From Negativicutes bacterium (GTDB lineage Bacteria; Bacillota; Negativicutes; Sporomusales; JAOACF01): a DNA stretch of 39,324 bases. Below, piece after piece: positions 12,660 to 27,109 of this stretch. Location: assembly GCA_026417995.1 (NCBI GenBank), contig JAOACF010000007.1:334-39657 (forward strand), read 5' to 3'. The notes under the pieces are model-generated. The model was not told where the DNA came from. It made no database searches and saw only the letters and a list, made by a program, of their open reading frames with translations. The position numbers were made by a program, and so were the translations under genes. The first letter of the stretch is position 1. Every line of letters begins with the position of its first letter.

Positions 12660-14624
12660 CTAACGGCCTTCGAACCAGACCGTCACTTCCGCCCCTCTGT
12701 CTACTACCGTGTTGGCGGGAATGCTCTGCTTTACGGCAATGCCCGTTCCCGCAGGGTTAATCGCCAGTCCCAGTTTATTAAGGCTGTCAGCTGCCTCGCG
12801 TATAGTTTTCCCAAGTACATTCGGTACAACCACTTTGCCGGGGGGCGGCGGCGAAGCGGCTCCGACCGTCTCGGCAGCAGGCTTGTCCTGCGGCCGGGGT
12901 GCGGCAATGGGTTCAAACCCGGGCAGCGGCTTGATATTCAGATACCGCATCACTTGGGTCATAATCTCGCTGAATACGGGCGCCGCCACTTCGCCGCCGT
13001 AGTAAACGCCGCTCGGGTCGTCAATAATCACCAGCGCGGCGACCTGCACATCGTCAACAGGCCCGTAACCGACAAACGAGGCTATATACTTTCCGGCTTC
13101 ATAGCCTCCGCCGCCGCTGCGCAGCTTTTCGGCCGTCCCTGTCTTGCCCGCAAAGCGGTAGCCTTTTACCGCCGCCTTTTTACCGCCGCCCTCGGTAACG
13201 ACTTTTTCCAGCATTCCGGTCATAATCCTGGCCGTCTCGGCCGAGACCACCTGACGCACCGGCTGCGTTGCGACACTGCTGACAACCGAGCCGTCGGGAT
13301 TACGAATTTCTTTGATAATATGGGGTTTTAGCAAAACTCCGTCATTGGCAAGCGCCGCAACGGCGCTTAACAGCTGCAGCGGCGTAACGGCGATGCTCTG
13401 ACCGATCGACATTGTCGCCAAATCTGAGGCGCGCATGTTCGCGGTTTCAAAAAGCAGCCCTTCCTCTTCGCCGGGGAGTTCTACGTCGGTAGCCTTGCCA
13501 AACCCGAAAGCCCGGGCATAGTCATTCAGCCGGCTGGCACCCAAACGCATGCCCACTTGGACAAACCCCGTATTAATCGAATTTTTGATAATATCGACAA
13601 ACGCGATATTGCCGTAGCTGCCGCCATCCCAGTTCTTGATCCGTCGTCCGGACACCTCGACATAGCCGTTGTCCTGAAAGCGCTCTTCCGGCCTTACCAC
13701 TCCCTCCTGCAGGGCGGCGGCCGCAACAATGGCCTTGAAGGTTGAACCCGGCTCATAGATTATGGAAACTGCCCGGTTTTTCCACTCAGCAGGGCCATAG
13801 TCAAAAAAGCGGTTGGGATTGTACGCCGGACGGTTGGCCATCGCCAGAATCTCGCCGGTGCGCGGATTAATGACAATGGCGGTGGCCGAGCGCGCTTTAG
13901 TCCTGGCCATAACCCGGTCAAGACTTTGCTCCACGATAAACTGAATGGTGTTATCAATGGTCAAAAGTACGCTTTTGCCTTCTTTGCGCGGCAAAAACGT
14001 AAAAATCGATTTATAAATCGGCACTCCGTAGCTGTCCGTTTCCACAATCTGCTGCGAGAGTTCCCCTTTGATGGTCTTGTCAAGCACCATTTCCACACCG
14101 TCAAGCCCGGCATCATCCGTGCCGACAAAACCCAGGACATGCGCGGCAAGAGTGTCATTGGGATAATAACGCTTGCTTTCCTCAATAAACCCGAAACCTT
14201 TGAGCTGCTGCTCCTTGATGAGGCGCGAAACCTTTTCCGCCTGTTCTTTGTCGAGGGTGCGCTTAATCCAAATAAACCGGGCGTCCGCACGCAAACGTTC
14301 TTTAATATCGGCGGCCTTCATCCCCAGTATGGGGCTCAGCATTTCCGCCAGTACGCCGGCATCCTTGTCCAGTTCTTGCGGATTGGCATACAGCGATTTG
14401 CTTAAACTGCTGATTGCCAGCTCCCGTCCGTTACGGTCAAAAATCGTGCCGCGCGGCGACTGCAGCGCTTTGGTATCCCGCAGTTGAACAGCAGCCTTTG
14501 CTTTCAGCTGTTGTCCCTGAACAAGCTGAAGCCAGGCGAACCGTCCGGTCAGAATTGCTCCTGCCAGGAGCAGCGCCAGCAGGAAATATAGGATGCGCCG
14601 CTCTACCGAGGCGCCTCTGGGCAT
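12660..14624 (-). CDS. PASTA penicillin-binding protein, SpoVD/FtsI class B transpeptidase
   Basis: 654 residues: one N-terminal membrane helix (about 10-35), the PBP dimerisation domain beginning RGTIFDRNG, the transpeptidase with STFK at 294-297 (catalytic Ser), SIN at 349-351 and KTG at 494-496, a proline-rich linker, and one C-terminal PASTA domain (about 595-654). It cross-links peptidoglycan at septum or spore cortex. The single PASTA domain recalls SpoVD, but the gene is outside a dcw cluster, so vegetative FtsI versus SpoVD cannot be settled. I use the ATG at 14624, with AAGGA 8 bases upstream; the ATG at 14633 is too close to its purine run. Confidence 0.92.
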   Translation of the reverse strand: MPRGASVERRILYFLLALLLAGAILTGRFAWLQLVQGQQLKAKAAVQLRDTKALQSPRGTIFDRNGRELAISSLSKSLYANPQELDKDAGVLAEMLSPILGMKAADIKERLRADARFIWIKRTLDKEQAEKVSRLIKEQQLKGFGFIEESKRYYPNDTLAAHVLGFVGTDDAGLDGVEMVLDKTIKGELSQQIVETDSYGVPIYKSIFTFLPRKEGKSVLLTIDNTIQFIVEQSLDRVMARTKARSATAIVINPRTGEILAMANRPAYNPNRFFDYGPAEWKNRAVSIIYEPGSTFKAIVAAAALQEGVVRPEERFQDNGYVEVSGRRIKNWDGGSYGNIAFVDIIKNSINTGFVQVGMRLGASRLNDYARAFGFGKATDVELPGEEEGLLFETANMRASDLATMSIGQSIAVTPLQLLSAVAALANDGVLLKPHIIKEIRNPDGSVVSSVATQPVRQVVSAETARIMTGMLEKVVTEGGGKKAAVKGYRFAGKTGTAEKLRSGGGGYEAGKYIASFVGYGPVDDVQVAALVIIDDPSGVYYGGEVAAPVFSEIMTQVMRYLNIKPLPGFEPIAAPRPQDKPAAETVGAASPPPPGKVVVPNVLGKTIREAADSLNKLGLAINPAGTGIAVKQSIPANTVVDRGAEVTVWFEGR

Positions 14625-16643: not shown

Positions 16644-17750
16644 CTAAAATTCCATTGTCGCCGGCGATTCCCAGCGGCCGGCATGCGACAGAATGATTTC
16701 TGCCAGCATCTTGGCGCCGCCTTTGCTGACATTTACAACCGGCAGGTTTACGGCGCTTTTCACGGTAAGCTGCAGCCTCACCGGATCAACCATACCCGGA
16801 ACATAGGTATTGTCTTCCACCCGGTATTCGGGATAAAACGGATTGACGGTGATCGCCATAAGCGGCACCCGCTTTAAAACCGCTACCAGTACACCCGCTT
16901 CATCCAGTTTGGTCAGCATGGCAAAATAGCTTTGATCTTCCGCTGCGACCAGCAGTTTCACAGGGTCTTGCACGGCTAAAATGACCCGGCGCCCTTCCAG
17001 CCGCTCGGCAAGGGCTGCCAGCGCCTTGCCCGTGATGATGCCCGGCACATAGAGGCAACCTCCCTCGGGAATGTCCGCAGCCAATGCGCTGTCAACATCC
17101 TGCGCGGTTAAGAGCGAAAGCTTCATCGACCGGCCGCGCACCCGCAGTCCGGCATCCAGGACGGTGACGCCGGGATAGTTGCGCCGTGCGATTTCGGCCG
17201 CTGCCGGCGGCTGCGGCAGACGGGCAATAGCGGCGAAACTTTGGGCCTGAGCGGCCAATAGCGCAATATTGCGGCTCTTGGCGGCGCCGGTTGCCAGGAT
17301 CATGCCGTCCATTTCACCAAAAGGGGCAATTCGATTCAGCGCTCCGTCAAAGATGGCTACGCCGTGGCTCAGTCGTTTCAGCATATCGGCAATCCGCCTG
17401 ACTTCATGTGTTTTGTTGGGGCCTGCGGTCACAACCAGCCCGGGTCTTAACACTTCGGCGATCTGCACTTTGCCCAGCGGCGTGCCGACATCAGTCGTTT
17501 CCAGCACCCGGAAAGCCGCCGTGCCCGTCTTCAGGCACATTTCCGCGGTTGCGACTATATCTCCGGCCTTTACCTCCAGGCGGGGCTTGGGCAAGCCGGT
17601 AATGGCGTCGATGCTCTCACCGTCATAGCCGATACTGGTCAGCAGCAGAGGTATGCCTCTAGCGCGCAGTTCGGCCATGATCGCGATCGTGGCGGTCGTT
17701 TTGCCTGTATTTTTGGCTGTGCCGGCAATCCCTACCTTAATAAACTGCAA
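16644..17750 (-). CDS. P-loop ATPase-like protein, KamB-like aminomutase reactivase (proposed)
   Basis: 368 residues from a TTG start with GGAGG eight bases upstream (the upstream regulator ends in that site). A P-loop GTAKNTGKTT lies at about 10-19, followed by LLTSIGYDGE and the TGLPKPR and GDIVATAEMCL segments. From memory, AKNTGKTT, TSIGxDGE and LPKPR are shared with KamB, a subunit of the lysine 5,6-aminomutase reactivating factor; I could not check this. Reactivases swap damaged cobalamin for adenosylcobalamin using ATP. Its place at the end of the cobalamin-mutase cluster supports that role. The longer frame to 17795 overlaps the regulator and has no ribosome site. No KamC-like partner is seen. 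Confidence 0.65.
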   Translation of the reverse strand: MQFIKVGIAGTAKNTGKTTATIAIMAELRARGIPLLLTSIGYDGESIDAITGLPKPRLEVKAGDIVATAEMCLKTGTAAFRVLETTDVGTPLGKVQIAEVLRPGLVVTAGPNKTHEVRRIADMLKRLSHGVAIFDGALNRIAPFGEMDGMILATGAAKSRNIALLAAQAQSFAAIARLPQPPAAAEIARRNYPGVTVLDAGLRVRGRSMKLSLLTAQDVDSALAADIPEGGCLYVPGIITGKALAALAERLEGRRVILAVQDPVKLLVAAEDQSYFAMLTKLDEAGVLVAVLKRVPLMAITVNPFYPEYRVEDNTYVPGMVDPVRLQLTVKSAVNLPVVNVSKGGAKMLAEIILSHAGRWESPATMEF

Positions 17751-17754
17751 GGCG

Positions 17755-18480
17755 CTATCCTCCTTTGCCCTCCCAATACCGTTCGACGTCGGCAATCAGG
17801 TTGTTCACATGGGTGATCATCGCCTGCCTGGCCTTCTCCGGGGCACGGCCGGCAATCGCCTCATAGATGTTCTTATGGTCAATATATACCATACTGTGCA
17901 CGCGTTTGCGGATAAACTCCAGCACCGGCGAGAGTTGGGTATCGACGCGGATGAGCTTGATCGCCGAAGCCAGCACGCGGTTGCCGGCCATTTCGGCAAT
18001 CGTCGCGTGAAAACAAACGTCTGCCTCGGCCGTGGTTTCCCCCTTTTCCACGCCGCGAAACTGGCCTTCAAGGCATGCCGCCAATGCGTCAATTTGCTGT
18101 CTGGTGCCATTTACCGCCGCCAGCGCGGCAAGCTCGCTCTCGATCGCCCGGCGGGCCACAAGCACTTCGAGCAGTTGTTCTTTGGTATGTCCTTGCAGCG
18201 CCTCGGCCAGTTCAGCGCCCCAGCGCAGACCCTTGCTTTTTGTCGCCAACTCCTGCAGCTTTTCCATTCCTGTCGGCGATATCAGCCGTCCCTGATACCC
18301 TGCTTTCAGCGCATAGCCGCATTCATCAAAGTCGCGCAAAATCCGCCCAACGGTAGCTTCACTGACCGAATATCCCTTTTTGCGGAGCATGCTGCTGATG
18401 GCGCCGCAGCCGACAGGCTGCGCGGCATCCTTAAGAATAGTCAAAATTTCCGCTGCAAGGCGCTCTTTTTCCTGAAGCAC
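17755..18480 (-). CDS. Transcriptional regulator: winged helix (HTH_12 / NrpR-like) plus FCD ligand domain
   Basis: 241 residues. Residues 5-68 look like the winged helix found at the N-terminus of NrpR and RNase R type proteins (LTILKDAAQPVGCGAISSML, then SEATVGRILRDFDECGY), not the GntR helix-turn-helix usually attached to FCD domains. Residues about 95-235 are an FCD domain, with likely metal or ligand residues D154, H158, H202 and H224. FCD regulators sense small organic acids. GTG start at 18480 with AGGGGGAG just upstream. It lies inside the second unit of the cobalamin cluster and is the best candidate to bind the CTCATC-N3-GATGAG operators. Confidence 0.75.
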   Translation of the reverse strand: MLQEKERLAAEILTILKDAAQPVGCGAISSMLRKKGYSVSEATVGRILRDFDECGYALKAGYQGRLISPTGMEKLQELATKSKGLRWGAELAEALQGHTKEQLLEVLVARRAIESELAALAAVNGTRQQIDALAACLEGQFRGVEKGETTAEADVCFHATIAEMAGNRVLASAIKLIRVDTQLSPVLEFIRKRVHSMVYIDHKNIYEAIAGRAPEKARQAMITHVNNLIADVERYWEGKGG

Positions 18481-18494
18481 GGCAACTCCCCCTG

Positions 18495-18941
18495 TCAATT
18501 ACCGCCCGCCGCCATAACGAAGCGGATGGCATCACCGGGCTGCGCCTCTATTTCCCGGCCGGTTTTAAGGTTTTCCGTCAAAATCACAATATTTAAGTGG
18601 TTGGGCATATGCGTTTCATCAAAACCCAACAGCTTGCCGATGCAGGCATCGCGCAAATATACAGCGTCGCCGGCGACAACAACTCCTTCGCGGGCAACGC
18701 TGAAAAAGCCAAGATAAGCGATGCGGTCAACCCGGCCGCCTGCTTGAATGCCCTGCTGGTCAGTCAGGATAAGTTCATGCACCTGATAGCGGTTTAGGCA
18801 GCGGGAAGGCTGCGGAATTAAGACGAGGCCCCGGTTTTCCATGCGGCCGTCCAGCACGGCCACGAGCCGGCCGGAAACTTCGGCTTTCCGGTAATAAGGA
18901 TTCGCGGTAAACAAATTTTGCTTATATGGATCTGCCGACAT
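18495..18941 (-). CDS. Unknown protein of the cobalamin-mutase cluster
   Basis: 148 residues, mostly predicted beta strands, no signal peptide and no membrane helix. I do not recognise the family. Phrases such as GRLVAVLDGRMENRGLVLIP and LTENLKTGREIEAQPGDAIRF suggest a small barrel or binding fold. Start ATG at 18941 with GAGGTGAG just upstream; a frame extending to 19031 would overlap a stem-loop. It follows the transporter gene and ends 15 bases before the regulator start, so it belongs to the same transcript. A role in the same pathway is inferred from position only. Confidence 0.6.
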   Translation of the reverse strand: MSADPYKQNLFTANPYYRKAEVSGRLVAVLDGRMENRGLVLIPQPSRCLNRYQVHELILTDQQGIQAGGRVDRIAYLGFFSVAREGVVVAGDAVYLRDACIGKLLGFDETHMPNHLNIVILTENLKTGREIEAQPGDAIRFVMAAGGN

Positions 18942-18984
18942 AATACTCACCTCGCCAAATCTTGCTTGACAACCTAAAGCCAAA

Positions 18985-19015
18985 GCAGGGGAAATAGCTG
19001 GCGCCACTCCCCTGC
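18985..19015 (-). other. Intercistronic stem-loop after the transporter gene
   Basis: GCAGGGGA and TCCCCTGC pair perfectly (8 bp) around a 15-base loop containing GGCGCC. On the minus strand it is followed by GCTTTGGCTTT, a broken T-run. It could lower expression of the downstream genes or stabilise the transporter mRNA. Confidence 0.5.
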
Positions 19016-19031
19016 ATATGAATTTTACCAA

Positions 19032-20414
19032 CTACATCAGGATAACGGCGACAATGGTAGTGGCGATAAAGCCGCAGACAACCGGAATCAAGTTGCGGCG
19101 GGCGAGTTCGAGCGGGTTCACGCCGCAAATAGCGGCAACCGGGATTAAGCCCCAGGGAATAATTGTACCGCCGCCCGTCCATACGCCGGCAATCTGGCCT
19201 AACGCCGCCAGCGTGGCTGTATCAATGGTAATGGCCTTGCCAAAAGTGGCGGCCACGCTGCCCACCAGCGGCAGCGGGGAGAAGCCGGAGCCGTCCAGGC
19301 CGACGATGATGCCGGTGCCTAGGCTGACAAGCGCTACGAAAGCTTTATTCAGCGGAACGGCCTGGGATAAGGCCACGCCAAAATCTTCGAGAAAGCCGGT
19401 AGCCGTTTTCACTTCTAAAATTTGTTTTGCCAGTTCGCCTTTGCCCATAAAGAAAAATCCGCCGATGATGATAACCGGAGCAAAAATCTTGATGCCAAAC
19501 ATAAAGCCGTCACGCACATAATCCGTGATTTTTTCCAGACCTTCCCAGCCAAATTTCAGCATAGTGCCTACCGCCAGAATAATCAGCGCGGTCGCGCCAA
19601 GCAGCGCAGTCGCATCACCGCCCCGCAGCTTGAGGGCGAGCATAGCGTACACATCAAGCGCAAATGCCAGCGGCGTGACAATGGCGAGGAAGTACGAGAT
19701 CCAGTTGATATCGCGTTTTACCGTAGCGGCGGCAAGAGCCTCCCGGTCTGCCTCGAGCATATGCGGCTTGGCCTTGATGTCACGTTTTAGCATTACGAAA
19801 GCAACAACCGTTGTGACCAAGCCCATGGTAATAGCAAGCGGCACGCTGGCGCTGATAACCTGAGACGGATCGGCAAAACCGGCTGCTTTGGCCGTAATCG
19901 TCGGTGCTCCTTGAATAACATAGTCAGTTGACAGCGCTATGCCATGGCCAAACAGGTTCATAGCCACAGCCGCACCGATAGCTGGCAATCCCGCGCGGAC
20001 GGCGACCGGAAACATGATCGCCCCAATAAGCGCCGTCGCCGGCGAAGGCCAGAAAAACCAGGAGGCAATCATCATACTAAGCCCCAGCACCCAGAAGGCG
20101 ATAGCGGGACTTACCATGAGTTTGGCTGCAGGGCTCATGACCAGGTAATCGGCGCCGGTTTCCGAGAGTAGCTTGGATAAAGCAACAATCAGCGAAATAA
20201 TAACGATAATACCCCAAAATTCGTTGCCGGCAACAATCAACGCATTGTATACAGTGCTTACCCCGCCGACAAAACTCTTTTTAAACAGCCAGCCGACGGT
20301 CAAAAGCCCCAGAACACAGGGAATCAGCGGATCCTTGCGGAGCCCCATTACCACGATTACCACGCCGACCCAGAACAAAAACAGCCAATGTGACGCGGTC
20401 AGTTCAATTGCCAT
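19032..20414 (-). CDS. Membrane transporter, ion-transporter superfamily (GntP/DcuC/CitMHS-like)
   Basis: 460 residues, about 11-12 hydrophobic helices. Two helix-break motifs are visible: ASWFFWPSPATALIGAIMFPVAVRAG in the first half (about 115-140) and VGLDGSGFSPLPLVGSVA in the second half (about 370-390), each like the re-entrant loops of the ion-transporter superfamily. Members import carboxylates or gluconate-like acids with protons or sodium, or exchange them. AGGAGGG precedes the ATG. It is the first gene of the second unit and carries one CTCATC-N3-GATGAG operator upstream, so it probably imports the pathway's substrate. Exact family and substrate uncertain. Confidence 0.75.
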   Translation of the reverse strand: MAIELTASHWLFLFWVGVVIVVMGLRKDPLIPCVLGLLTVGWLFKKSFVGGVSTVYNALIVAGNEFWGIIVIISLIVALSKLLSETGADYLVMSPAAKLMVSPAIAFWVLGLSMMIASWFFWPSPATALIGAIMFPVAVRAGLPAIGAAVAMNLFGHGIALSTDYVIQGAPTITAKAAGFADPSQVISASVPLAITMGLVTTVVAFVMLKRDIKAKPHMLEADREALAAATVKRDINWISYFLAIVTPLAFALDVYAMLALKLRGGDATALLGATALIILAVGTMLKFGWEGLEKITDYVRDGFMFGIKIFAPVIIIGGFFFMGKGELAKQILEVKTATGFLEDFGVALSQAVPLNKAFVALVSLGTGIIVGLDGSGFSPLPLVGSVAATFGKAITIDTATLAALGQIAGVWTGGGTIIPWGLIPVAAICGVNPLELARRNLIPVVCGFIATTIVAVILM

Positions 20415-20536: not shown

Positions 20537-20551
20537 CTCATCAGAGATGAG
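20537..20551. promoter_or_regulatory. Operator copy 3: CTCATC-AGA-GATGAG
   Basis: Perfect 6-bp inverted repeat with a 3-base spacer, about 125 bases upstream of the transporter gene. The flanks extend as an imperfect GTTGCC/GGCAAC pair. This is the main feature in the 295-base gap between the transporter and the FAD oxidoreductase gene. Confidence 0.7.
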
Positions 20552-20709
20552 CGGCAACCGCCGCGTCTCCATCGTAATATTCTATTTAATTTGACATTTT
20601 TATTAATTCGCCATTTTTACCTAAACACCTTTTGCTATACCCAGTTTGCTCTGTTCCTCTTTTTCCCAGGAGCAAAAGGGCCGGAAGACCATCTCCCAGC
20701 CCCTATGCC

Positions 20710-22017
20710 TTATTGCGCGGCGCATAGTGCCGCCGTCGTGACCGGAATGGCGAATACGCCGGTCAGGCCCGTTGCCCGCACCCGCTCCCGGATGGCGGCG
20801 ACATCGGTCGTATATAAGCCTTTGGCTTTCATCCGCTCAAAATATTTAGCGCCGGAGAAAGTATACTTTAAGGTCAGGCCCGCTTCGGTCTGCATCTCGG
20901 CGCGCACGTACGCAATAGCATCGCCGATTGCCAGCGTTGCGGGAAGAACCAGCAGGGAAGCGCCGACTGCCTGCCGCACGGCATTGTGTCCGGCAAGTGT
21001 ACCGGTAACAATAGCCTCTGTATGGCCGACCAAAAGACCGGCTTTCTCGCCGCCGCAGAACAGATTGTCCAGCCCCTCCACTTTGAGCGCATTATCGCGG
21101 GGCGAAAGCGCCAGATAACGGATGGAGTTGCCTACGCCGCCGGCATATGGATCTTCATACCGGGCATTGGCAAAACCGGGAATGCTGCGCAATTTATCGA
21201 GCGGGTAGAAGGGCGACATGAGTTTGGCGTGTCCGGTATCGAGCAAAATGACATTTTCGGCAAAGTCCTGCAGGGCATACTGCTGACAGGCTTTAATCGC
21301 CAGCGATTCCTGTTTGCGCAATTCCGCCGGAATCGGCACAACTGCAACACCGCGCTCATTCAATTCCCGCACCAATTCTTCGCTGAGCGATTCCTTGTGC
21401 AGCTTGCACGAGCCGCTCATCGCACCAAAACTGCCGTCAGCTTTCCTGCCGATAATTTCGGTTACGCCGGCCTGCGCCGCAATGCTCACCCGCGGTCCGA
21501 ATGTCGGACAGCGCAGAATGCACATGGCGCAGCCGTTGCCGTATTTCAGGCAATTGCCTTGCGGTCCGGCCGAACCGGTCGCTTCCACAAAAGCATCGGC
21601 GGCAAACACCTGCCCTTTGTCGCTAACCACCGCCCGGATGCGAGAACCGTCCATAACCACGCTCTGGATGCGGCTCTTCAGATGCACCTTTACGCCGGCG
21701 CGGACAAGTTTGGCGCGTACGACAGGTTCGATCCTGGCCACATCATACAGCGTCGCGTGTTTGTGCCCGGGAAATTCGATGTTCTTATGCCGGGCGGTTT
21801 CCTCCACGGCGTCAAATAAATCGCCGCCGCCCAGCGCATAGGCTTCTTCCGTCGCCGTAAACCGGCCGTTATTGCGCATAATGCCGCCGACAAGCCCTGT
21901 TCCCAGCAGCATATCGGTGCGCTCCAGCAAATGGACTTCAGCCGCTCCGGCCTTTTTCGCGGCAATCGCTGCCGCGCATCCGGCCCAGCCGCCGCCAACT
22001 ACTACAATGTCAGACAC
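20710..22017 (-). CDS. FAD-dependent oxidoreductase with cysteine cluster
   Basis: 435 residues from the GTG at 22017, with AAGGAGGG seven bases upstream. The Rossmann FAD motif VVGGGWAG lies at about 6-13, and a C-terminal GLFCGGEKAG-like segment (here LDNLFCGGEKAGLLVGHTEA) closes the FAD fold as in GidA/fumarate-reductase-type enzymes. A CX6CX2CX3C cluster at C156, C163, C166 and C170 (NGCAMCILRC) may bind an iron-sulfur centre. Substrate unknown; an amino acid or oxo-acid oxidation is possible from context. Last gene of the first unit, 40 bases after the PLP enzyme gene. Confidence 0.8.
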   Translation of the reverse strand: MSDIVVVGGGWAGCAAAIAAKKAGAAEVHLLERTDMLLGTGLVGGIMRNNGRFTATEEAYALGGGDLFDAVEETARHKNIEFPGHKHATLYDVARIEPVVRAKLVRAGVKVHLKSRIQSVVMDGSRIRAVVSDKGQVFAADAFVEATGSAGPQGNCLKYGNGCAMCILRCPTFGPRVSIAAQAGVTEIIGRKADGSFGAMSGSCKLHKESLSEELVRELNERGVAVVPIPAELRKQESLAIKACQQYALQDFAENVILLDTGHAKLMSPFYPLDKLRSIPGFANARYEDPYAGGVGNSIRYLALSPRDNALKVEGLDNLFCGGEKAGLLVGHTEAIVTGTLAGHNAVRQAVGASLLVLPATLAIGDAIAYVRAEMQTEAGLTLKYTFSGAKYFERMKAKGLYTTDVAAIRERVRATGLTGVFAIPVTTAALCAAQ

Positions 22018-22057
22018 AGAAAAACCCTCCTTACTGTCTTTGCCCGGGCAATGTCGA

Positions 22058-23524
22058 TTAAGCAATACCCGCATACTTGCAGGTGATTTCGATCAGGCGC
22101 ACCAACGCTCTTATCGCATAACGCATCGGCTCTGCCAAAACCTGGCCCTTACTGTCGCAGGTGCCCAAACCGGGCGAAATATAGATATTGCCGTCATAGG
22201 CGACTGTAGGTATGACGCCCATCTGCGCCATGCCGGTCTGGAAGATGTTCGACCCTGCATACATGTCTTCGATCGAGAAAATCGGAATGCCTAGCTCGCC
22301 CTGCTGCCATGTATTTTCGTAATTCACCTCTACTGCCGTTGAATTATACGACTTCGAGATGAGAATCCCTTCTTTCAGCCGGGCAGGCAGGTTAATTTTG
22401 GCAAATTCCTCTCGGACGATTTGTTCCAGGTCGTCTACCGGCTTGGTTAAAACCTCCGGCTTATCTCTTAGCACTTTAAGCGCCTGAATTTGCGTCAGCA
22501 ATGCTTCTTTGCCGGGATCAAATGTCACATAAGCCGCTTTGCCGTAAGATGCGGTAGTGCCGTAGCGGTCACCGTGCATGCCCATGGCCCGGCGAATGGG
22601 TACCATGACTTCTTCTTTGCCGATGATCAGGCCGCTGGTTGCCGCGCCGGTCGCTTTGTCCATGCTGTAGATAATTATGTCCGCGCCGGTTTTATGCGGA
22701 TTGCAGCCAACAAAAGGCAGCCCCCAGGCATTGTCAATCACATAGGGCACATTGTAGTCGCGCGCGATTTCGCCTATGTATTTTTGCAAGAGCGGCGTAC
22801 CGTCCTCGTCCTTAACGCCGTAGCCGTAACCGGGCGTTTCATAACCGAGCGAGGTGAATCCGGAGAGCATGCTGGCGTGGATGGCCGCATGCCTGGCAAT
22901 AATCTCTTTCGATTGCTCAGGATCAACCGCGGTCAAAAGCGGCACGGGATGGTATTTCAGGCCGTGCACGTCGTACTTGGCGCCGGCCAGCGGCACAATT
23001 ACCGTGTCCAGGTTATTCTGGCGCTTGCCGTAAAAGCCGAGTTCGCCGGCGGTCGAGCCCCTGTCGGCAAAAATATCTTTAAAGCGGGGCGGCACGGGAC
23101 GTCCATAACTTGCCTGGTGGTGCAGGTGTTTTTCGTAAGGAGCGATGTAGCGGGCGCGGTAGTTGTCGCCCCGGCCGAGAAGCGGCGGTGAAAACAGCGT
23201 GTCAAACGTGACCCAGAGGCCTGCTTCGCAGGTAGAAGTCGGCGCGGCGTCGTATTCGTCGCCATAAACACTTTTGACAATTTCGCGGATTTCATCGACC
23301 AGTTTGGCCAGCGGCACAACCTCTTTCGCGCCTTCTTCGCTTGCGGCCAGAATGTCCTCGCGGAGCGGTGCCGGACAGCCCGAAATGGCCCCTGTCAGGC
23401 CAAATTTGCCCCGCAGTTCTTGGGGTATCCCAATCTCATCCGCCACTGCCTTCGCCTCGGCATAGATATTGGGAATATTCTGCTGCAGCTGACGATACAT
23501 TTGGAATTTGAACTTTGGTTTCAT
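22058..23524 (-). CDS. Fold-type I PLP enzyme of unknown specificity (SelA/DgaE-like lysine motif)
   Basis: 488 residues. PLP fold is shown by YVIDNAWG with Asp264 (ring nitrogen) and by YSMDKATGAATSGLIIGKEE with Lys290 (Schiff base). The DK-x-GG/A-x-SG-iivGK pattern and the RYGTTASYGKAAY region recall SelA and D-glucosaminate-6-phosphate lyase (DgaE) rather than ordinary aminotransferases. An N-terminal region of about 130 residues (HLHHQASYGRPVPP and before) is not one I recognise. It may do a beta-elimination, lyase or transfer reaction on an amino acid. AGGAGGG precedes the ATG. It sits between the cobalamin mutase-like gene and the FAD enzyme. Confidence 0.75.
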   Translation of the reverse strand: MKPKFKFQMYRQLQQNIPNIYAEAKAVADEIGIPQELRGKFGLTGAISGCPAPLREDILAASEEGAKEVVPLAKLVDEIREIVKSVYGDEYDAAPTSTCEAGLWVTFDTLFSPPLLGRGDNYRARYIAPYEKHLHHQASYGRPVPPRFKDIFADRGSTAGELGFYGKRQNNLDTVIVPLAGAKYDVHGLKYHPVPLLTAVDPEQSKEIIARHAAIHASMLSGFTSLGYETPGYGYGVKDEDGTPLLQKYIGEIARDYNVPYVIDNAWGLPFVGCNPHKTGADIIIYSMDKATGAATSGLIIGKEEVMVPIRRAMGMHGDRYGTTASYGKAAYVTFDPGKEALLTQIQALKVLRDKPEVLTKPVDDLEQIVREEFAKINLPARLKEGILISKSYNSTAVEVNYENTWQQGELGIPIFSIEDMYAGSNIFQTGMAQMGVIPTVAYDGNIYISPGLGTCDSKGQVLAEPMRYAIRALVRLIEITCKYAGIA

Positions 23525-23600
23525 TGGTAAAACCCTCCTGTGTATTTTTTATTTTAAAGAACTACCTGATTACTGCCCGCTCAAGGCCCCGTTCAGCCTA

Positions 23601-25415
23601 TCAGCAGCCGATAACGGTTCCCCGGCCGATTCTGCCCGGATATGCCCCCTCCTGCGTACTTCCCAGCAGCCCGTCATAAACTGCTTGGATAAAATCACCC
23701 CGCTCGGCTACCGCAGTCAGCACCTGTTCAATGCCCTCAACCAGTTGCTGCGCCCAAACACCGGCCTGGGCGGTAGGCTCAATGCCGGCCGTGCCGAAGA
23801 AGCGAAAGCCTTCCTGCACGGCCTGCAGCGTGTCAATCCTTGCCGCTGCGGTAATGGGACCGCCTGAATACGCCTCATCGGCCGACGCGATAGAGATGGC
23901 ATCCACCTGAAGGGATGCGGCGAGACTGGCGTGCAGCGCAGTGGTTATAGCCGACTGAACACGGTCCTCGGTATGCGTGAGAAAACCGATGGGAGCGCCG
24001 GGCCAGAGAGGAGCGTTCAGGATTTGACGCAGCGCCTGAACTTTGGCGACATTAAAATCAATGTAGTTGTCGGCCATCCAGCCATTAATCATCACTTCCG
24101 GCGAATAGGCAAACAGCGGCTGCAGAATGGGTTTTGCGCCCAGCTCCAGCGCCAGATCGGCTACGATGAGCATGCCGGCGAAAGCTTTATGCGCGGGCAC
24201 GCCGCACAGTTCCTCATTGGTCACAATATCAAACGGCAGATTGTACGCGGCAGCATATCCGACCGCCGCGCAGCCATCCACGACCATGCGCTCCGGGTCG
24301 GTGCCTGCGCCCAGCATGCCATAACAAAAATTGATCTTGGTCAGGTCTGCCCCTAATTTCCCGGCCAGCACCACCGTCTCCGGGGTATTGAGCCCCCGGT
24401 GGGCGCGCACCTGCCACAGCGTGGCGGCATGAATGCCGGCGCGAATACGGTCTAAATTCGCCGGAGTCAAAACCGTCCCGTCTTCCTGATGCGTCAGAAA
24501 CCCGTCAAGAAACCCTTCGGTCCGGGCGCCCCAGGAGGGGTCAAAATGAACAACTCCGTCAACCCCCCAAGCCTCGCTGGCCAGAATATGCCCGATATCC
24601 ATAAACGGGCAGCCGGTACCGTACTGGTTAAAAACAAGCGGCCGCTTGCCGGTATGGCGAACGCTGCGTACCGGCGTCTGAGGCCTTACTGTCGCCAAAT
24701 ACGCTTCTAGGTCGCGCACCTCGCCCGGAGTAACCCGTCTGGTTTTCGGATGCAGTTCTCCCTGCCCGTAAAAATTCCGCGGGATTTCCCCGCATAAGGC
24801 CGCGTACTGCCGCGTGAAGTATTCATCAACGCTACCCTCGCGCCACTTTGCGGCATCCCAGCCGGCATGGCGCAACTCTGCCCGCATGATACCCGGTGAG
24901 GTGCGGCCCGTGACCCATTCCCGGATCATGCCGGTTACCCGTTTGACCTGCCGCTCAATGCCGGCGTGACGGTACCGGTAATCATATCCCTGGCAGATAT
25001 CGAATTTTTGCTTCAGGCTGGCCTCACGGTTGGGAGCATATTCTCTCTCCTCCACAAAGCAAATTACCTCAGCCACGCTTGTTCCCGGACCGAATCCGGC
25101 GTCAAAGCCAAGCTCGGCTGCCAGCTCCGGCCTTATAGCCATGCCGCCGATACCGATGCGGGCAGTTTGCCTGAGGCCGGCGGCATCCGCCATATCGATA
25201 AACCGCGCCAGCAGTTCGGCGACGCCATACCCCAGCGTGCGGCTGACAAGAATGGTGTCAACCTTGTCTTCCACCGCCCGGCTGATAATCTCTTCAAGCA
25301 ATAAGTCAGGCGGCAGCAAAATAGTCGTATGGCCGGCAGCTTCAAGACCGCGCGCCATCATTTTGAGGCCGATATCATGCACTGGATCGAGCGGCGCTAA
25401 CAGTACCTTCTTCAT
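23601..25415 (-). CDS. Cobalamin-binding domain fused to lysine-5,6-aminomutase-like TIM barrel
   Basis: 604 residues. Residues 1-125 are a B12-binding Rossmann fold: DPVHDIG (10-16, axial His13), ILVSRTLGYG, and the ELGFDAGFGPG loop, closest from memory to KamE of lysine 5,6-aminomutase. Residues about 240-604 resemble the KamD barrel: SWGARTEGF, the APIGFLTHTEDR segment and the closing VYDGLLGS region. In lysine 5,6-aminomutase the parts are separate, and Lys144, eleven residues after the axial His, holds PLP; the matching residue here is Leu24. So this looks like an adenosylcobalamin mutase without that PLP anchor. ATG overlaps the upstream stop as ATGA. Confidence 0.78.
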   Translation of the reverse strand: MKKVLLAPLDPVHDIGLKMMARGLEAAGHTTILLPPDLLLEEIISRAVEDKVDTILVSRTLGYGVAELLARFIDMADAAGLRQTARIGIGGMAIRPELAAELGFDAGFGPGTSVAEVICFVEEREYAPNREASLKQKFDICQGYDYRYRHAGIERQVKRVTGMIREWVTGRTSPGIMRAELRHAGWDAAKWREGSVDEYFTRQYAALCGEIPRNFYGQGELHPKTRRVTPGEVRDLEAYLATVRPQTPVRSVRHTGKRPLVFNQYGTGCPFMDIGHILASEAWGVDGVVHFDPSWGARTEGFLDGFLTHQEDGTVLTPANLDRIRAGIHAATLWQVRAHRGLNTPETVVLAGKLGADLTKINFCYGMLGAGTDPERMVVDGCAAVGYAAAYNLPFDIVTNEELCGVPAHKAFAGMLIVADLALELGAKPILQPLFAYSPEVMINGWMADNYIDFNVAKVQALRQILNAPLWPGAPIGFLTHTEDRVQSAITTALHASLAASLQVDAISIASADEAYSGGPITAAARIDTLQAVQEGFRFFGTAGIEPTAQAGVWAQQLVEGIEQVLTAVAERGDFIQAVYDGLLGSTQEGAYPGRIGRGTVIGC

Positions 25416-25663
25416 TTCCCTTCCCCCTGCGCAACGCCGCTTTGCAGCCAGCCGTAAGCGTCTGACGGCCGGTGAATGTACGCCCGGCCCCGTACTCTGG
25501 TTCCCGGGCCTTCATGCCGTGCATATACGATGTCGACATCGCGAAACCCCCATGATTTAAGCAAGCCGGTCATCAAATTGCGCCCTTCCGCCTCGCAGGA
25601 ACATACAAAAAAGGTTTCCACATCCAAAGCATCCATGATTTGCCTGGCAGCTTCCTGCATACC
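25412..25663 (-). CDS. Small unknown protein at the head of the cobalamin cluster
   Basis: 83 residues from the ATG at 25663, with GAGGTG five bases upstream. Its only notable features are FFVCSCEAEG near residue 20 (two cysteines) and a basic middle (RHEGPGTRVRGR). I do not recognise the family. Its stop overlaps the start of the mutase gene as ATGA, so the two are coupled and the product may be a small subunit or chaperone of the mutase. A longer frame to 25726 would translate through the operator and is rejected. Confidence 0.65.
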   Translation of the reverse strand, partial: GMQEAARQIMDALDVETFFVCSCEAEGRNLMTGLLKSWGFRDVDIVYARHEGPGTRVRGRAYIHRPSDAYGWLQSGVAQGEGK

Positions 25664-25675
25664 ATCACCTCTTTG

Positions 25676-25690
25676 CTCATCACGGATGAG
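25676..25690. promoter_or_regulatory. Operator copy 1: CTCATC-ACG-GATGAG
   Basis: Perfect 6-bp inverted repeat just upstream of the ribosome binding site of the 83-residue protein. On the minus strand it is preceded by GCTA, as operator copy 2 is on the plus strand. Binding here would block RNA polymerase or the early transcript. Confidence 0.72.
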
Positions 25691-25740
25691 TAGCGAGCGC
25701 CAAAAAATAAAATTGCTGCGCAACATACCTTTTGATGCTA

Positions 25741-25755
25741 CTCATCTTTGATGAG
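25741..25755. promoter_or_regulatory. Operator copy 2: CTCATC-TTT-GATGAG
   Basis: Second copy, centred 65 bp from copy 1 (about six helical turns), in the 258-base gap between the divergent cobalamin unit and the aminotransferase gene. Spacing would allow a repression loop. No cobalamin riboswitch was recognised in this gap. Confidence 0.72.
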
Positions 25756-25921
25756 GGAATATTCTCTTTCTATCCCCCAAAATTCCTGCTGTATTGGTAA
25801 AATATTTTTAAAATTTTTTAAAGTGAATATACTCGCTCTCAATATGCTTCCATTTTTGTTAGCTGCAGGGTATGATAATGTTAGATAATACCAGCCGAAA
25901 AACAATAACGAGGTGAGCAGC

Positions 25922-27109
25922 ATGAAATTCGCAAAGCGGTTGAATTTCCTCGGCATCGAAAATGCCTTTGAAGTGTTGGCCGAAGTGACCAAGCTGAAGG
26001 CGCAAGGCCGGGATATTATCAGCTTCGCTATCGGCGAGCCCGATTTTGACACCCCGGCAAACATCAAGGAGGCCTGCATCAAAGCCATTCAGGCCAATCA
26101 TACCCACTATGGCCCGTCGGCCGGCCTTCCCGCGCTGCGCGAGACGATCGCCGCCTACATCGCCAAAACCCGCGGCATCAGTGTCAGCGCCGATGAAGTT
26201 GTCGTTACGCCCGGCGGCAAGCCAATTATTTATTACATTATCCACGCACTGGTTGATCCCGGCGATGAAGTTCTTTATCCCAATCCCGGCTTCCCCATCT
26301 ATGAATCGGTAACCAATTTCGTCGGCGGCAAACCGGTGCCTGTTCCTTTGCTCGAAGCAAAAGAATTCAGCCTGGATACCGACTACCTGCGCTCGCTTAT
26401 CACCCCCAAAACCAAGCTCATCATCCTCAACAGCCCGCAAAATCCGACCGGCGGCATGCTCACCCCGGCCGACCTCAAAGCCATTGCCGCGATGGCAGTC
26501 GAACATGACCTCTGGGTGCTGTCGGACGAGATTTACAGCCGCGTCCTCTACTCCGGTGAATTTCACAGCATCAGCGCGCTGCCGGGGATGAAAGAACGCA
26601 CTATTATCCTGGACGGTTTTTCGAAAACTTACGCTATGACCGGCTGGCGCCTGGGTTATGGCGTTATGCCTTCAGCCCTGGCCACTTGGGTGTCTCGCTT
26701 AATCACCAACAATGAATCCTGCACCAATACTTTTATCCAGTATGCGGCAATTGAAGCGCTCACCGGGCCGCAGGACGCCACGGCGGCCATGGTGCGCGAA
26801 TTCAAAGCCCGCCGTGATTTAATTGTCGACGGGCTTAACAGCATCAAAGGCTTTTCCTGCAAGCTGCCGAACGGCGCATTTTACGTTTTCCCCAATGTCA
26901 CCCAAGCCTGCCGCAACCTCGGCCTGCCTGACGCCAAAGCGCTGCAGCAGCTTCTCCTGCATGAGGGCAATGTCGCTGTGCTGCCCCGCACGTCTTTCGG
27001 CGTAAAAAATATCGGCGAGACGGAAGAATATGTGCGTTTCTCCTACGCCACCTCGCGGGAAAACATCATCGAAGGCTTAAAACGGATCAAGGCGGTAGTG
27101 GAAAAATAA
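25922..27109 (+). CDS. Class I/II pyridoxal aminotransferase (aspartate-aminotransferase-like)
   Basis: 395 residues. Motifs: FAIGEPDFDTP, NSPQNPTGG, SDEIYS with Asp202, GFSKTYAMTGWRLGY with Lys235 as Schiff base and Arg243, and a C-terminal Arg in VRFSYA for the substrate carboxylate. Type I aminotransferases of this kind act on aspartate, alanine, aromatic or branched amino acids; the specificity is not readable. Start ATG at 25922 with AGGTGAG 8 bases upstream. It is divergent from the cobalamin cluster and shares its operator-bearing gap, so co-regulation is possible. A TATGAT at 25872-25877 may be its -10 box. Confidence 0.92.
   Translation: MKFAKRLNFLGIENAFEVLAEVTKLKAQGRDIISFAIGEPDFDTPANIKEACIKAIQANHTHYGPSAGLPALRETIAAYIAKTRGISVSADEVVVTPGGKPIIYYIIHALVDPGDEVLYPNPGFPIYESVTNFVGGKPVPVPLLEAKEFSLDTDYLRSLITPKTKLIILNSPQNPTGGMLTPADLKAIAAMAVEHDLWVLSDEIYSRVLYSGEFHSISALPGMKERTIILDGFSKTYAMTGWRLGYGVMPSALATWVSRLITNNESCTNTFIQYAAIEALTGPQDATAAMVREFKARRDLIVDGLNSIKGFSCKLPNGAFYVFPNVTQACRNLGLPDAKALQQLLLHEGNVAVLPRTSFGVKNIGETEEYVRFSYATSRENIIEGLKRIKAVVEK

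Follow-up and report, generated by a model that had tools for sequence, protein, structure and literature searches.

A conserved palindrome as candidate operator of an HTH_12-FCD regulator at a cobalamin-dependent enzyme cluster of a Negativicutes bacterium

The closest described relatives of the system reported here are the FadR subfamily of GntR regulators (PdhR, LldR, DhdR, TM0439), which carry an FCD effector domain and have palindromic operators with a centre of 3 base pairs (bp), and the winged-helix proteins of the HTH_12 family (PF08461), such as ribonuclease R. The archaeal NrpR is also an HTH_12 protein, with a different operator. One account gives the FadR-type operator consensus as TKGT-N3-ACMA (PMC4494728). 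Here we describe a 39,324-nucleotide stretch of a Negativicutes bacterium (assembly GCA_026417995.1, contig JAOACF010000007.1, positions 334 to 39,657; hereafter the window), in which a minus-strand gene cluster is accompanied by three copies of the palindrome CTCATC-N3-GATGAG and encodes a regulator (17755-18480) with an FCD domain whose DNA-binding domain is HTH_12 and not GntR. Taken as a whole, the evidence is best explained if the three palindromes are operators of this regulator, which we consider very probable on the strength of sequence comparison. If the regulator does bind this site, its operator also differs from the FadR type in having no TKGT and ACMA boxes.

The three copies are exact, at 20537, 25676 and 25741 (Table 1); a scan of the whole window found no further exact copy and none with one mismatch, and the sole match with two mismatches is at 14208. 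A first-pass annotation, made from the window alone, had reported three copies and no other in the window, all between genes, with a chance expectation of about 0.002, and all of this was borne out: base composition predicts 0.0022 exact copies per window (0.146 per genome of this organism), and the copies lie outside the called genes, upstream of the two units of the cluster. Copy 20537 is intergenic, between a gene end at 20710 and the ATG of the next gene at 20414. Copy 25741 stands 65 bp upstream of copy 25676, between the divergent starts at 25660 (-) and 25922 (+), and copy 25676 is itself 1 base upstream of AAAGAGG (from 25674), which we read as the ribosome-binding stretch for the start at 25660. 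An alternative open reading frame (ORF) in the ORF list, 25412-25726, would span copy 25676; we prefer the shorter start because of its ribosome-binding stretch. The earlier annotation had proposed a genome-wide scan, with scattered copies as the refuting outcome. In the organism's own assembly (2.65 Mb, 236 contigs, 89% complete) only the three cluster sites match exactly, and a reversed control pattern has zero matches.

We took 56 loci from whole genomes (8-20 kb around regulator relatives, with not every weak relative taken) and 66 from one scan of named genomes; together with the window, and after removal of 21 duplicates, this left 102 loci for comparison. Apart from a few weak ones, the named loci come from Bacillota (Lucifera, Tepidanaerobacter, Fervidicola, Desulfosporosinus, Heliorestis and others) and Synergistota. 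Loci with a regulator at ≥36% identity and at least three of five core genes were classed as cluster-linked (63 loci); an exact site is present in 56 of these, and in 60 when one mismatch is allowed, so that the proposed check for the motif before orthologous clusters was positive. Altogether 91 exact sites are spread over 64 of the 102 loci, none inside a family gene, and the gene downstream encodes the DUF6917 protein (39 sites), the small protein (32), the permease, the regulator or the putative pyridoxal phosphate (PLP) enzyme (3 each), the flavin adenine dinucleotide (FAD) enzyme (1), an aminotransferase (1) or another product (9). The spacer of these sites has A at its first position in 75% and T at its third in 90%, which gives CTCATC-A-N-T-GATGAG as the refined consensus. 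When 57 loci were scanned blind for any 6-bp dyad with gaps of 0-16, CTCATC-N3-GATGAG came first, in 40 loci, against 8 for the next unrelated dyad; the 59 other permutations of the half-site occur in a mean of 0.085 loci (maximum 1). The 3-bp centre, as in FadR-type operators, ranks first among the gaps scanned.

These results leave practically no room for a dispersed repeat or a chance palindrome, which we rejected on the window and genome scans, the expectation and the blind dyad scan. Exact matches do occur in genomes that lack the regulator, 0-3 in each and 20 in 45 genomes; of the 14 examined, however, 12 lie inside ORFs and 2 are terminator-like stems, and the organism's own genome has no copy outside the cluster. 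Nor is any other perfect dyad of 6 bp, at any one gap from 0 to 10, found more than twice in the window.

The site also follows the regulator. Among 398 genomes of the phylum searched for the regulator and for the 604-residue enzyme of the cluster, each was found in 39, and both in 36. As controls we used ten more loci, which surround enzyme copies remote from a regulator. None of the ten shows the regulator, and eight of them (L235-L242, where L235 is the second copy in the organism's own genome) have no exact or one-mismatch site. In this genome and three others (G096, G137, G358), the site is present at the enzyme copy linked to the regulator and missing at the other copy. The proportions with an exact site, 56/63 beside the regulator and 2/10 away from it (Fisher p 2e-5), or 56/63 and 1/7 when the rule of three core genes is applied on both sides (p 8e-5), are uncorrected for relatedness. 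At the level of genomes, an exact match is present in 12 of 15 with the regulator and 14 of 45 without it (p 0.0012). In Synergistota without the enzyme cluster, moreover, it is the regulator gene itself that the site immediately precedes, exact in L200 and L211, with one mismatch in L203, L215 and L217, with two in L206 and L216, and absent in L207. In L034, L200 and L211, 20-47 bp separate the centre of the site from the regulator match that follows. The earlier proposal that the palindromes upstream of the cluster units are operators bound by the FCD regulator is thus supported by comparison.

The recognition helix points the same way. In 57 loci not selected by helix sequence, an exact site accompanies SEAT at the start of this helix in 40 of 52 cases and other residues in none of five. 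In five of six Synergistota loci with SEAS, the site that precedes the regulator is broken in one arm. We do not claim a base contact from this T49-to-S change, because L212 and L228 keep SEAT and also have one broken arm. In L203, L207 and L216 (Synergistota), a second regulator of the family, a few kb away, has SMAT instead of SEAT and is not preceded by a site.

Several observations weigh against the assignment. The association of helix and site is only suggestive, because the five loci that depart from SEAT have no enzyme cluster and are more distant as well. Seven of the 63 cluster-linked loci have no exact site, and L134, L208 and L209 have not even a one-mismatch site (L208 and L209 are cut inside the cluster). 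Only 7 of 29 loci with the regulator and fewer than three core genes have an exact site nearby (17 of 29 with one mismatch allowed), and the window spacers AGA, ACG and TTT match the A-N-T preference only in part, none of them being A-N-T on either strand except for half a match by ACG (CGT type). The loci are related, so that counts over them are not independent. Three genomes with the regulator (G001, G015, G048) have no exact site genome-wide; G015 and G048 have one-mismatch sites near the regulator. Finally, there is an exact site at two of the control loci. One of them, L243, belongs to a genome that carries the regulator on another contig; the other, L244, belongs to genome G078 (78% complete), in which no regulator was found. 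G078 has four sites, that of L244 by the enzyme gene, and this favours the rival reading in which a different regulator, encoded elsewhere, binds the palindromes and the FCD protein is a mere neighbour. We think such a binder unlikely, given that the eight enzyme-gene loci described above lack both adjacent regulator and site, that in L200 and L211, which have no enzyme cluster, the site still adjoins the regulator, and that altered recognition helices accompany missing or degenerate sites.

A palindrome so close to a ribosome-binding site might instead act as RNA, as a hairpin in the 5' leader that controls translation. Many sites do lie 5-40 bp upstream of a gene start, some leading directly into GGAGG. 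For others, however, the distance to the start is about 100 to 900 bp, and the spacer favours A and T at positions 1 and 3, though a one-base loop bars their pairing. No Rfam match reached the gathering threshold in the window. Among 26 sites with one or two mismatches there are no compensated pairs, a weak test because single mismatches cannot be compensated. We regard the hairpin as very improbable, and return to the palindromes as DNA operators.

The architecture of the proposed binder is unusual. Pfam identifies FCD (PF07729) and HTH_12 (residues 17-81). Both domains are present in 41 of 41 aligned relatives, which were found in part with a pattern that includes the recognition helix, whereas the GntR winged helix (PF00392) is found in none of the 41 at E ≤ 0.01 (22 families listed). 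The model of the regulator (mean predicted local distance difference test score, pLDDT, 88.0) has a winged helix, whose recognition helix begins at residue 47 (here and below in the numbering of the 247-codon frame from 18498), and a C-terminal domain built only of helices, which superposes on PdhR (Z 21.9, 1.3 Å over 135 residues) and DhdR (Z 21.2). D160, H164, H208 and H230 are invariant in the 41 sequences of the family, a D/H/H/H set that may correspond to the ligands of metal-binding FCD proteins. Autoregulation by an FCD regulator through an operator is of a known kind; the HTH_12-FCD architecture, its operator sequence and the regulon appear to be new as far as open-licence literature shows, as titles and abstracts in open-licence PubMed Central yielded nothing on any of the three.

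The position of the sites suggests how they may act. Around 82 sites, -10-like hexamers occur within 10 bp upstream 32 times, compared with 12.7 after shuffling. AGGAWWW-N13-15-GAAT is found within 70 bp upstream of 20 of the 82 (shuffled mean 0.30) and a looser form of it upstream of 34 (shuffled 1.8), mostly before DUF6917. This resembles the sigma-H (Spo0H) consensus, given as RMAGGRWWW-N11-12-RRMGAAW (PMC4754846). The organism's own genome encodes SigH (TIGR02859, 372.4 bits against a cut-off of 294.8), and the strict pattern is common there (137 places; reversed control 18). In the window a sigma-H-like element, unlike the consensus in its gap, precedes copy 25741 (Table 1), and there is none at copies 20537 and 25676. 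It emerged on comparing promoters; as to a sigma-70-like promoter, each promoter region has one weak candidate, at about the level of shuffles (near copy 20537 at 20606-20579, minus strand), and we rejected these. Neither region contains a terminator-like site. In seven regulator-less loci (L236-L242), 14 upstream stretches of 250 bp contain no sigma-H-like element. The elements before part of the operators suggest a tie between the cluster and the transition to stationary phase or sporulation.

A dimer of the regulator would occupy the palindrome, with one CTCATC half-site for each winged helix. Because the sites often directly follow a -10 element, the bound protein would stop transcription at initiation or in early elongation. 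The block would be lifted once an inducer occupies the FCD domain; this inducer is probably a carboxylate of the pathway, coordinated by a metal. The regulator gene lies inside one of the two controlled units, which would make it control its own expression too. Repression at the transcription start, relieved by a ligand, is likely and is the simplest reading; we infer repression rather than activation from position only.

A further idea of the first-pass annotation was that a pair of copies sharing a GCTA flank, 65 bp or about six turns apart, would form a repression loop. The flank (GCTA/TAGC), the distance and the turns (6.2) are correct, but in order of coordinate the pair consists of copies 2 and 3, where the annotation had named copies 1 and 2. 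As an addition to the operator reading, a loop that needs both sites finds some favour in this spacing and in the pairing of sites at a single promoter; some FCD regulators are known to use several operators. Exact pairs less than 300 bp apart, however, occur in only 5 of the 102 loci, and the spacings other than that of the window (36, 60, 67, 83 and 108 bp, or 3.4, 5.7, 6.4, 7.9 and 10.3 turns) share no common phase. We therefore consider the loop improbable: possible in this window, and not a conserved feature.

The cluster itself comprises two units. The first, starting at 25660 and preceded by copies 25676 and 25741, encodes the 82-residue protein, the 604-residue protein with a B12-binding domain, the 488-residue putative PLP enzyme and the FAD enzyme; the second, starting at 20414 and preceded by copy 20537, encodes the membrane protein, the DUF6917 protein, the regulator and the KamB-like reactivase (Table 1).

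Table 1. Candidate operators, promoter element and genes of the cluster (positions within the window)
Feature	Position	Strand	Basis or remark
Operator copy, distal site of enzyme operon promoter	25741..25755		CTCATC-TTT-GATGAG; exact match; sigma-H-like element directly upstream (-)
Operator copy, proximal site	25676..25690		CTCATC-ACG-GATGAG; 1 base upstream of ribosome-binding stretch of 82-residue protein gene
Operator copy before membrane protein-DUF6917-regulator-KamB-like unit	20537..20551		CTCATC-AGA-GATGAG; exact match
Sigma-H-like element AGGAATT ... GAAT	25761..25787	-	Gap to GAAT 16 bp (consensus exceeded by 1-2); stops 5 bp short of copy 25741
Class I aminotransferase, divergent, likely ATG 25922; possible further target of copy 25741	25913..27109	+	Pfam
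Small conserved protein, 82 residues, first gene of enzyme operon	25412..25660	-	Conserved in relatives
604-residue protein: N-terminal B12-binding domain and barrel resembling lysine 5,6-aminomutase alpha subunit	23601..25415	-	Pfam/NCBIfam, model, fold search
488-residue putative PLP-dependent enzyme, weakly DgaE/SelA-like	22058..23524	-	Family and PDB sequence searches
FAD-dependent GidA-like oxidoreductase	20710..22074	-	Pfam
460-residue membrane protein, called permease from hydrophobic sequence	19032..20414	-	No Pfam or NCBIfam hit
DUF6917 protein	18495..19031	-	Pfam
Regulator: HTH_12 winged helix and FCD domain, 241 residues from GTG 18480; inferred binder	17755..18480	-	Pfam, model
KamB-like reactivase	16644..17795	-	213.7 bits against curated cut-off of 210, barely over

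The first-pass annotation had spoken of a cobalamin cluster. This is right in that the genes encode a cobalamin-dependent enzyme system, and wrong if cobalamin synthesis is meant. With lysine 5,6-aminomutase and ornithine 4,5-aminomutase the cluster shares the B12-binding domain, the barrel fold and a KamB-like partner: the model of the 604-residue protein (mean pLDDT 87.3) has a template modelling (TM) score of 0.53-0.63 to the lysine 5,6-aminomutase alpha subunit. Unlike those enzymes, it is one chain with the B12 domain in front, and the profile of the lysine 5,6-aminomutase beta subunit gives 48.9 bits, far under the curated cut-off of 280; outside residues 9-116 no Pfam family matched. 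Pfam, NCBIfam and PDB sequence searches, with one fold search of the 604-residue protein, give only broad classes, and we found no open-licence PubMed Central paper on DUF6917.

The enzyme genes also occur in other settings. On contig C176 (L235) of the organism's own genome, a second set comprises genes for the small protein, the B12 enzyme (about 70% identical), the KamB-like protein and the permease, the last cut by the contig end, with neither regulator nor operator. L236-L242 represent a type of enzyme cluster in Bacillota without regulator, site or sigma-H-like element. A Desulfosporosinus contig (L213) has two copies of the enzyme genes, with an exact site before the first and another about 3.3 kb before the second.

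Sites beyond the cluster point to a wider regulon. The earlier statement that the sites mark both promoters of the cluster applies to both units and is too narrow, in that copy 25741 also faces the divergent aminotransferase gene and the regulon extends further. In regulator-bearing relatives, 18 exact sites in 17 regions (one being that of the G008 cluster itself) were assigned by a crude gene caller, 11 to intergenic positions and 7 to the inside of reading frames. The intergenic sites precede a second permease copy (80% identical) and NIF3-like genes, one of these followed by a major facilitator superfamily (MFS) gene, and one site lies between a divergent pair of FAD enzyme and aminotransferase genes. 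Aminotransferase genes adjoin sites also in L047 and L087, so that this enzyme is a possible member of the putative regulon, on the basis of three genomes. In Synergistota, a diaminopimelate dehydrogenase-like gene of L216 has an exact site about 200 bp upstream, and the genes that come after the regulator of L211 are diaminopimelate epimerase-like and amino-acid ATP-binding cassette (ABC) transporter genes, which is a hint at the ligand. Most tentatively, and as something of a long shot, HTH_12-FCD proteins may form a separate lineage with an operator code of their own that, together with sigma-H, controls an adenosylcobalamin-dependent diamino-acid pathway, with diaminopimelate or a relative as the inducer, for example from cell-wall turnover at entry into sporulation.

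In summary, this work proposes a candidate operator, binder and regulon for an uncharacterized B12-dependent enzyme system of many anaerobic Bacillota, with a regulator that is also present in Synergistota and belongs to a class in which the FCD sensor domain is coupled with another kind of DNA-reading domain. The putative regulon (aminotransferase, permeases, NIF3-like, MFS and diaminopimelate enzymes) would offer a route to the substrate of this system, through ligand screening with one purified protein.

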